Of a DNA stretch of 64,000 nt, positions 7,286-10,881 are shown piece after piece. The translations under genes were made by a program, and so were the position numbers. The stretch is taken from assembly GCA_937873695.1 (NCBI GenBank), contig CALMYL010000023.1, positions 62,001-126,000 on the forward strand, given 5' to 3'. Position 1 is the stretch's first letter. Each line of letters starts with the position of its first letter. This DNA is from an uncultured Ignavibacteria bacterium. GTDB lineage: Bacteria; Bacteroidota; Ignavibacteria; Tepidaquicellales; OLB5. The notes below the pieces were generated by a model. It was not told where the DNA came from, did not search any database, and saw only the letters and a program-made list of their open reading frames with translations.

Positions 7286-7594
7286 ATGAAAGAAAAGATC
7301 AGAAATATTATTGAGAAGAATCTGAATGGGTACACTCTTGAGAAGATAATATTGTTTGGCTCAAGGGCAAGGGGTGACTTTGATATTAATAGTGACTATG
7401 ATCTATATTTGGTTTTAAAAGAGAAGCTTAGCAGAGACCAAAAAATAGAACTGATGGACTTACTTTCCGGTAAACTGGCAGAAGCAGAAATATGCTCAGA
7501 TATTGTAATTGGAAATGAAGAAAACCTGCAGCAGAATTCAGAAAATAGTGACAGCATTTTAAAGTTTGTTGCTGAAGAAGGTCAGTTAATATGA
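7286..7594 (+). CDS. MNT-domain nucleotidyltransferase (orphan MntA-like antitoxin)
   Basis: Minimal nucleotidyltransferase of 102 residues. The active-site pattern GSx10DxD is complete: GSRARGDFDINSDYD, so two metal-binding Asp are kept. Such proteins pair with a HEPN partner and, in the HepT/MntA type, inactivate it by adding AMP. Here the partner is missing: an ATGA overlap leads into a 17-codon open frame that stops at once. It precedes ppx/gppA closely. The role is inferred from the family; without its partner the gene may be a remnant. Confidence 0.8.
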   Translation: MKEKIRNIIEKNLNGYTLEKIILFGSRARGDFDINSDYDLYLVLKEKLSRDQKIELMDLLSGKLAEAEICSDIVIGNEENLQQNSENSDSILKFVAEEGQLI

Positions 7595-9221: not shown

Positions 9222-9557
9222 TTACATATTATCTAAAATGGACCTTATTTGTAATTCAAGCTTAGGCAATTCTTCTACCGCTGCTTTCCATGCAAGTTCT
9301 GCATCAATTCCAAAATAATTATGAATCAAAACGTCTCTCATGCCTGCAATCTTTTTCCAGTTTATTTCAGGGTGTAGTATTTTGAAGTCGGTTGACAGGT
9401 TTTTAACGGCCTCGCCAATAATTTCCAGCCGCCTGTATACCATATCCTGTGTTGGGATGCTGTTGTAAAAATCATTCATAGAGACATTTTCCAGATATTC
9501 TTTAACCAGATCTGTGCTTTCAATTATGTGCGACAGAAAAAACTTTTCTTTACTCAA
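9222..9557 (-). CDS. hepT: HepT-like HEPN ribonuclease toxin
   Basis: Toxin of the HEPN/MNT type II-related class (DUF86), 111 residues, all alpha. The catalytic and modification motif Rx4HxY is intact: RDVLIHNY. Arg and His form the RNase site; the Tyr is the residue that the cognate MntA adenylylates in studied pairs. Starts with TTG overlapping the stop of mntA (TTGA), so the two are translationally coupled, antitoxin first. Nothing suggests decay. Confidence 0.85.
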   Translation of the reverse strand: MSKEKFFLSHIIESTDLVKEYLENVSMNDFYNSIPTQDMVYRRLEIIGEAVKNLSTDFKILHPEINWKKIAGMRDVLIHNYFGIDAELAWKAAVEELPKLELQIRSILDNM

Positions 9558-9835
9558 AAGAGGACTTCCTGATCTTTCAATATTTCTTCTTTAATATGAG
9601 GATTTATTGAACTATATGTAAGGACATCTACTTTTTTGTGGAATTTTTCTTCTAACTCAACTTTAATTTCCGCAAGATCAAACAGATTTTTATCACCGGA
9701 AAGCTGTATAATCAGATCAATATCACTGCCTTCAGTATTATCGCCCCTTGCAAATGAACCGAAAATTGATGCTTTCAGAACACCTTTTTCCTTTAAGAAA
9801 TTCGTAATGTATTTTTTTATTTCCTGATTACTCAT
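9554..9835 (-). CDS. mntA: MntA-like nucleotidyltransferase antitoxin
   Basis: 93-residue minimal nucleotidyltransferase with GSx10DxD complete (GSFARGDNTEGSDID). In characterised pairs MntA transfers AMP to the HepT toxin and so neutralises it. It is upstream of, and overlaps, hepT on the minus strand. It differs clearly from the orphan MNT at 7286, so the two are not a recent duplication. Confidence 0.85.
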   Translation of the reverse strand: MSNQEIKKYITNFLKEKGVLKASIFGSFARGDNTEGSDIDLIIQLSGDKNLFDLAEIKVELEEKFHKKVDVLTYSSINPHIKEEILKDQEVLF

Positions 9836-9883: not shown

Positions 9884-9943
9884 TTAATACACAATTTTTT
9901 CAAGGAAGAGCCCGGATGGCGGGGCAGTGAATTCAGCGATGTT
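9884..9943 (-). pseudogene. Second, detached copy of the truA 3' end
   Basis: On the minus strand this encodes IAEFTAPPSGLFLEKIVY and a TAA stop, identical in protein to the last 18 residues of truA, whose own copy lies 134 bp away (10018-10074). The two DNA copies differ at five positions in this stretch, and all five are silent third-base changes. It is cut off upstream by a family 2 palindromic repeat (9947-9992) and has no start. Confidence 0.85.
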
Positions 9944-9946
9944 TTT

Positions 9947-9992
9947 GACCCCACCCCCGGCCCCTCCCCGAAGGGGAGGGGAGAAGTAAACC
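9947..9992. repeat. Palindromic repeat, family 2
   Basis: GACCCCACCCCCGG followed by CCCCTCCCC-gaa-GGGGAGGGG and the flank AGAAGTAAACCT. The same left and right flanks recur at 34168-34216. It abuts the detached truA tail. Confidence 0.8.
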
Positions 9993-10017
9993 TGCGATTT
10001 TCTGCTTACCTGATAAT

Positions 10018-10833
10018 TTAGTACACAATTTTTTCGAGGAAGAGCCCTGATGGCGGTGCAGTGAACTCAGCGATACTACCGCGACTCTTGATGCCGGTCC
10101 CGCTTGCAGCGGGACTTCGAAAACCGCCAGCGGTTTTCTTGAGCGGAGGGGAGGAAAGCAGGTAAGATATCTCTTCGTTTTTCATTTTGCCCCTGCCAAC
10201 TTCAACAAGCGCACCAACGATACGCCTTACCATCTTCCACAAAAAATGCGAAGCTTTTATGCGTATGTAGATCTTATTTGCGTCTTCGGTAATTTCAAGT
10301 GATTCAACAAGGCATTTGGTTGATTTATCATCGGGTGACTTATCCGAAAACGCTTTGAAATCGTGCATGCCAACAAAAAGTTTTGAGGCATCCTTCATTT
10401 TTTTTACATCAAGCTTATCCTTAACCCACCACACATAGCGTTTTTCAAACGCCGTACGGCGTTTTGAAATTACATATAAATACTGCCGTGATTTTGCGCT
10501 GTGGCGAGCGTGGAAATCAGGCCGTGCCTTTTCAATTTCGAGGATATTTATATCGCCGGGCAGTTCATCATTAATTTTCATTTTCAGTATCTCGGGTCCA
10601 AGCATTGTTTCGCAGTCTAAATGCGCCACCTGTTCGATAGCGTGAACGCCCGCATCGGTTCTGCCGGATCCTTGGAGGTCGATAAATTTATTGACACCCT
10701 TGTTCTTCCTGAAAACGGTATCAATGGCTTTCATTAACGTGCCCTGCACGGTTTTAACCGCTGATTCTTTCGGCTGTTTCTGCCAGCCGGAGTAATTTGC
10801 GCCGGTGTATTCGAGGTATATTTTAAATTTCAT
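10018..10833 (-). CDS. truA: tRNA pseudouridine(38-40) synthase TruA with a repeat-derived insertion
   Basis: Converts uridines 38-40 of the tRNA anticodon arm to pseudouridine. The 271-residue protein has the N-terminal YTGANYSGWQKQP and the catalytic Asp in GSGRTDAGVH, and the usual C-terminal TAPPSGLFLEKIVY. Between LLSSP and SIAEF, where family members normally have a few residues, there are 23 extra residues (codons 10078-10146) encoded by a palindromic repeat. The frame stays open, so the enzyme is probably functional with a low-complexity loop near its C-terminus. A second copy of the 3' end lies downstream at 9884-9943. Confidence 0.92.
   Translation of the reverse strand: MKFKIYLEYTGANYSGWQKQPKESAVKTVQGTLMKAIDTVFRKNKGVNKFIDLQGSGRTDAGVHAIEQVAHLDCETMLGPEILKMKINDELPGDINILEIEKARPDFHARHSAKSRQYLYVISKRRTAFEKRYVWWVKDKLDVKKMKDASKLFVGMHDFKAFSDKSPDDKSTKCLVESLEITEDANKIYIRIKASHFLWKMVRRIVGALVEVGRGKMKNEEISYLLSSPPLKKTAGGFRSPAASGTGIKSRGSIAEFTAPPSGLFLEKIVY
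10097..10138. repeat. Palindromic repeat, family 3, inside truA
   Basis: GTCCCGC (10097-10103) pairs with GCGGGAC (10109-10115), followed by GAAAACCGC-ca-GCGGTTTTC (10119-10138). The same two-hairpin plan with other arm sequences occurs at 57436-57475, 24063-24100 and 14575-14612. It lies in the coding frame of truA. Confidence 0.8.
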
Positions 10834-10842
10834 ATAATATTA

Positions 10843-10881
10843 GTTGTTGGTGATCCTGAAGGGACAAGCAACACCAACAAC
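10843..10881. repeat. Inverted repeat between truA and its upstream neighbour
   Basis: GTTGTTGGTG (10843-10852) is perfectly complementary to CACCAACAAC (10872-10881). It lies just upstream of the truA start and has no T-run, so it is more likely another dispersed palindrome than a terminator. Confidence 0.6.

Follow-up and report, generated by a model that had tools for sequence, protein, structure and literature searches.

The window, the whole 64,000-nt stretch of DNA analysed here, contains an intact truA gene followed by a second, detached copy of its 3′ end. Judged from its sequence, the detached piece was once the 3′ end of an older truA allele; it is now dead and out of frame. The best explanation, to which we assigned a probability of roughly 0.6, is recombination with a diverged homologue that ended at a dispersed palindrome and left the resident tail behind. 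Hereafter, G000 denotes the genome holding the window and G002–G012 its relatives in the same genus (13 genus genomes), with one genome per species, mostly metagenome-assembled genomes (MAGs). Coordinates of the locus and the further genes with repeated tails are listed in Table 1.

Table 1. Features of the truA locus in the window, and other genes whose tails are repeated downstream
Genome	Feature	Position	Strand	Remarks
G000	truA, tRNA pseudouridine synthase, 271 aa, intact	10018..10833	-	PF01416, E 4e-33
G000	Variable truA linker with nested double-hairpin repeat REP A, in frame	10075..10155	-	Hairpins 10097-10115 and 10119-10138
G000	Live tail (tail 1): IAEFTAPPSGLFLEKIVY plus stop	10018..10074	-	Kept to the protein end in relatives
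G000	Remnant of older truA codons (GKQKIAGLL)	9984..10010	-	Alignable to live truA of G008 (KQRIAGLL)
G000	REP B palindrome	9944..9983	-	Hairpin arms 9961-9969 and 9973-9981; GGGGGTGGGGTCAAA arm
G000	Detached tail (tail 2); its frame differs from that of the upstream remnant, and it is not translated as truA	9884..9940	-	Counterparts in G011 and G002
G000	420-aa gene; 427-aa gene			Tail repeats
G002	ppx; glycosyltransferase-like gene; 492-aa gene; 253-aa gene			Tail repeats; ppx adjoins truA and has N gaps
G002	Radical-SAM-like gene; 282-aa gene			Three tails each
G009	Nucleoside deaminase; RsfS			Tail repeats

A search of 59 genomes found a truA match in 58. As originally predicted, the 3′ end of truA in the window was doubled, forming 57-nt direct repeats (18 codons plus stop) that were 91% identical and lay 134 bp apart, start to start; the predicted span (9884–10146) also takes in the palindromes of both tails. 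Codon comparison confirmed that the five differences between the tails (GAG/GAA, GCA/GCC, TCA/TCC, CTC/CTT, and TAC/TAT) were all synonymous changes at third positions. The probability of all five being silent by chance was approximately 0.001–0.002 if all five are treated as random changes, a figure that is too strong because selection keeps changes in the live copy silent. Judged by the relatives, GAG looked like the derived state in the live tail, and TCC, CTT, and TAT looked derived in the detached tail; the chance of silence for these three detached-tail changes was approximately 0.02.

The sequence upstream of the detached tail identified its source. In both G000 and G011, the tail was preceded by REP B (CCCCTCCCC/GGGGAGGGG at 9961–9981 in the window), a palindrome differing from the hairpins of the live linker, and then by AAGCAGAAAATCGCAGGTTTACTT, which aligned with the codons of the live G008 truA located just before its in-frame REP B (KQRIAGLL vs QKIAGLL). 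The alignment score of the remnant with these codons was 19, against a maximum of 5 for shuffled sequences, and the left flank of the remnant together with REP B had no match to the codons of the live G000 truA. The homology of the detached piece thus continued upstream through REP B into truA linker codons. Because the remnant combines older linker codons with a REP B of the in-gene type, an arrangement that the live G008 truA also shows, the detached piece was assigned to an older truA allele as its 3′ end, in agreement with the prediction that it came from a different allele. The same prediction had looked for relatives in which the detached tail is the only end; this held in the sense that the working truA of G008 ends with the same type of linker. 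No function of the remnant is indicated, and the sequence between the two tails contained no ORF of 60 aa or more.

The detached tail was shared with relatives. G011, a separate MAG of a related species, had both the detached tail and its left junction in common with G000, and a tail was also present in G002; a tail absent from relatives, with differences that arose recently and at random, is therefore not what was found. The tails of the three genomes have common ancestry, and the detached tail is old and real. In G002, its right flank was that of G011 (stop, GGGGC...GCCCC terminator, and the same next gene), and its left flank was unlike that of G011 and common to G003, which would place an exchange at REP B. 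G008 retained a decayed counterpart of the detached tail, and none was found in G005, G009, or G012. Around REP B, the left (L1, L2) and right (R1, other) flanks occurred in four combinations: L1-R1 in G011, L1-other in G000, L2-R1 in G002, and L2-other in G003. These four combinations indicate that exchange probably took place at the repeat. The proposal that repeats provided the junctions accordingly stands for at least one of them, REP B, with the reservation that the palindromes are also dispersed repeats lying in frame within truA. The spacer after the stop was identical at 39 of 40 nt between G000 and G011, despite a divergence of 30% or more at silent sites between these genomes; this identity needs either further recent exchange or an unrecognised constraint. 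In most pairs of G000, G002, G005, and G011, fourfold-site divergence was lower in truA than in five neighbouring genes, which fits a recent spread of truA alleles.

We compared the silent sites of both tails among G000, G002, and G011, defining a site as concerted when the two tails of a genome have one state in common that is found in neither tail of the other genome compared. The three comparisons gave 12 concerted silent sites versus 0 paralogue-specific sites. The shared junctions make the duplication older than the split of G000, G011, and G002, and the 12 to 0 ratio means that the tails kept exchanging sequence; on the evidence of these sites, the truA tails evolve in concert within each genome. 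Tail 2 of G002 was a mosaic, its middle corresponding to its own tail 1 and its end (GAG TAC TGA) to that of G008. The silent-only pattern had been predicted to reflect divergence of the two tails under protein selection. It is indeed a pattern of exchange among coding tails, but it stems at least partly from later homogenisation, dates no event by itself, and is not by itself the trace of one clean import. An outgroup comparison aimed at the native truA tail was mixed, as expected if the tails were homogenised.

Palindromes have accumulated in this genus between the protein core and the tail of truA, and the gene has not been lost. A clear or decayed palindrome was found in the linker of 7 of the 11 genus members with a full truA. 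REP A occupied the linker of G000, G002, and G003, often nested in another palindrome, and REP B lay in frame inside the live truA of G004, G007, G008, and G010. The linkers of G009 and G012 were without a palindrome; those of G005 and G011 were short and may be deletion derivatives. Both repeats were also found elsewhere in the genomes: the REP A core pattern was dispersed in 8 of the 13 genus genomes, and REP B had matches in all 13, a strict REP B pattern search giving no matches because the repeat varies. We considered whether REP A and REP B had been swapped between the live and detached ends of G008 and G000; the arrangement may be independent, because insertion of REP A inside other palindromes recurs. 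In G002, one locus (L147, C13:662000-664300) contained several regularly spaced copies of REP A in what looks like a repeat array.

The same arrangement of tail, palindrome, and tail was found at ten genes besides truA. The survey covered sampled stretches of G000, G002, and G009 (2.46 Mb; 2070 ORFs of 100 aa or more) and scored ORFs whose 3′ tail recurred downstream, outside other ORFs. Tandem paralogues and secretion-type C-terminal repeats inside ORFs were left out of the count, as were L180 (the C-terminal end is itself a palindrome), L251 (a repetitive short ORF), L167 (weak and gapped), and L188 7288-7600 in G002, where a tRNA-like 3′ end was repeated approximately 31 bp downstream and the ORF probably does not encode a protein. 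A palindrome lay between the copies in every readable case, and the survey yielded one comparable case at a 5′ end (L201 in G002). Nine of the 11 spacers tested, which include one from the tRNA-like case later excluded, belonged to multi-copy repeat families with further members in the sampled genome, compared with 20–29% of ordinary 3′ flanks. We relied on this membership rather than on hairpin strength, for which the contrast was weak: with a Fisher p of 0.03, spacer hairpins were only slightly stronger than those of other 3′ flanks. No tail repeats were found in 250 kb of E. coli K-12 (211 ORFs), used as a control, or in loci from other taxa (184 kb, 171 ORFs); at the genus rate, approximately two would be expected there, and controls of this size do not suffice to demonstrate a genus-specific excess. 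Two genes 5 kb apart in G002 (L187 17300-18032 and 12239-12522, C1) each had three tail copies with palindromes between them.

Pooled codon differences between live and detached tails comprised 34 silent and 16 replacing changes (p = 2e-4), or 29 silent and 7 replacing after removal of the most diverged pair (p = 3e-6), both against a silent fraction of 0.42 that we estimated ourselves for a pair made up of a live and a free (pseudogene) copy. At the radical-SAM gene, the most distal tail matched the G000 orthologue at three of four sites, compared with none of four for the live tail, and had silent states and the stop codon in common with that orthologue. Recurrent leftover gene ends of this kind beside repeats suggest that related strains have repeatedly exchanged the ends of their genes.

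The course of events that we favour for truA would begin with a diverged functional allele from a related strain or species replacing the resident gene. The incoming allele would recombine upstream by ordinary homology, and the right-hand exchange would occur at or next to a dispersed palindrome rather than in unique flanking DNA, so that the resident linker, REP B, and tail would stay downstream of the new stop; the gene would never be interrupted. Later, the 57-nt tails would exchange sequence, by gene conversion or repeated import, and would thereby become alike within each genome, with differences that are mostly silent. A crossover between the REP B of a G008-type truA and the REP B of a G003-type downstream spacer would yield the exact structure of G002. 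We infer three elements of this course, namely the import from other lineages, the use of the palindrome as a crossover or template-switch point, and the frequency of such use.

The main rival is a local tandem duplication, in which slippage or a template switch at a hairpin copies the truA 3′ end together with its palindrome and conversion follows, no foreign allele being involved. Hairpins promote slippage, and the concerted truA sites demonstrate that the tails do exchange sequence. Moreover, the tails of the 420-aa gene of G000 were identical, and at L203 a unit of tail, flank, and palindrome was repeated head to tail; tandem duplication with conversion probably accounts for some loci, such as the 420-aa gene. 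Overall, we consider it rather unlikely, because the linker codons in the truA remnant do not resemble those of the live gene and two other loci behaved differently from local copies. At L187c, 14 codons distinguished the live tail from the detached one, 9 with an amino-acid replacement, a difference of the kind seen between species, and the live tail of the G009 deaminase was nearer to another species than to its own neighbour copy (93% identical to that of G002 versus 86% to its detached copy). The whole deaminase protein of G009 was 96% identical to that of G002, against a G002–G009 median of 84%.

Palindromes, some of them driven by RAYT transposases, may also have spread among relatives together with the adjacent 3′ end, replacing the resident end in frame and leaving the gene working. 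Only two observations point in this direction, namely the RsfS locus of G009 and, in G007 and G010, the RAYT genes directly downstream of truA; we regard such spread as unlikely. At RsfS (L263; C1, approximately 97000-98120), a RAYT-type Y1_Tnp gene and palindromes lay between two copies of a tail-flank-palindrome unit; this was the one locus with a mobility gene between tails, and truA had none. A RAYT-type Y1_Tnp gene started approximately 0–2 bp past the truA stop at L044 (G007, C104) and L047 (G010, C76), and a decayed one was likewise placed at L042 in G004. We considered the genes in G007 and G010 as the source of REP B and rejected them, since they carry a different palindrome, GACGACCTGCGTGTCGTCC.

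The corresponding general alternative, that a mobile REP palindrome with or without a RAYT travels with a gene tail and, on entering that gene elsewhere, replaces the tail in frame, draws on these Y1_Tnp genes and on the palindrome found between tails in every case read. It is nevertheless decidedly unlikely: the palindrome families differed between genes, the truA spacer was without a transposase, the RAYT palindromes near truA were not REP B, and no constant target site for insertion was observed. Attachment of an integrative element at the truA 3′ end, followed by restoration of that end and loss of the element body, is largely refuted and highly improbable. Such insertions typically restore the 3′ end with silent changes, but the sequence between the truA tails held no integrase or element genes in G000, G002, or G011, the homology extended beyond a core into the upstream linker and REP B, and the same pattern recurred at many unrelated genes. 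Finally, misassembly, which the original prediction had named as a possible refutation, is very unlikely to the point of being negligible, even for genomes that are mostly metagenome assemblies and with N runs at the G002 ppx tails, because the same left junction was assembled independently in G011, the silent states differed from genome to genome, and the reading frames were consistent.

Among described systems, C-terminal gene duplications by mORF insertions in fungal mitochondria (Allomyces atp6; Glomus atp6, atp9, cox2, and nad3; PMC3630166) appear to be the closest parallel in outcome. As proposed for truA, a foreign tail is joined in frame and the native tail lies downstream; as observed here, the protein is largely kept while the DNA differs. 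Likewise, several genes of one genome are affected, a displaced second C-terminal copy downstream of the functional one being found here for truA in three genomes and for ten further genes. The systems differ in that the fungal tails are separated by a homing endonuclease ORF and those of the genus studied here by a palindrome measuring some tens of bases and, at one locus, by a Y1 transposase gene, and in that the fungal native tail clusters clearly with relatives, whereas at truA this signal is blurred by homogenisation. Should palindromes indeed spread together with tails, they would be a bacterial counterpart of these fungal tail-swapping elements.

The palindromes themselves resemble other known repeats. 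As portrayed in the available part of a review (PMC10969869), the Rickettsia palindromic elements inside protein genes (Ogata and co-workers) are dispersed and lie in frame within ordinary enzyme genes like the truA linker palindromes, a likeness of placement and not of RPE sequence; that part of the review describes no tail duplication, which the truA case has. REP/REPIN sequences with RAYT transposases are small dispersed palindromes (PMC3116915, PMC8266576). Small palindromes are similarly dispersed in many copies in this genus, and Y1_Tnp (PF01797) genes were present in 12 of the 13 genus genomes; those read carried palindromes other than REP A and REP B, and no cognate RAYT for either was identified in the genus genomes. 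To our knowledge, copies of gene tails are not part of the described REP/RAYT system.

In natural transformation, unequal crossing-over at repeats gives merodiploids, which in pneumococcus span approximately 100–900 kb and involve IS-derived repeats (PMC3784515). The reading favoured here shares with merodiploids and with homology-facilitated illegitimate recombination a donor and a host repeat that pair out of register and thereby produce a duplication joined by a hybrid repeat; in contrast to the pneumococcal spans, the duplicated piece here is 33–90 bp, and the repeat is a small palindrome. In a limited, partial literature search, no account of gene ends displaced at small palindromes in bacteria was found. 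Displaced ends that lie beside palindromes would be fossils of single recombination events, recording both the prior allele and the end point of the exchange. If the pattern is genome-wide, gene exchange in natural populations would be shown to end at dispersed palindromes, and allele replacements could be counted from one genome. Short 3′ duplications with silent changes should also be treated with caution, as they are not necessarily assembly errors.

Several further features were noted around truA and its family. G000 encodes a second truA-family protein (C20:17782-18432, 37% identical), and similar proteins occur in many relatives. A HepT-like/nucleotidyltransferase pair lies between truA and ppx in the window (9222-9835) and was absent at this position in the relatives read; another nucleotidyltransferase is located at 7286-7594. 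In G002, ppx, which faces truA, had extra partial 3′ tails between N gaps (L185 13886-14147, C1). Upstream of truA in the window (10843-10881), we found the palindrome GTTGTTGGTG...CACCAACAAC, the arms of which also occur between the deaminase tails of G009.
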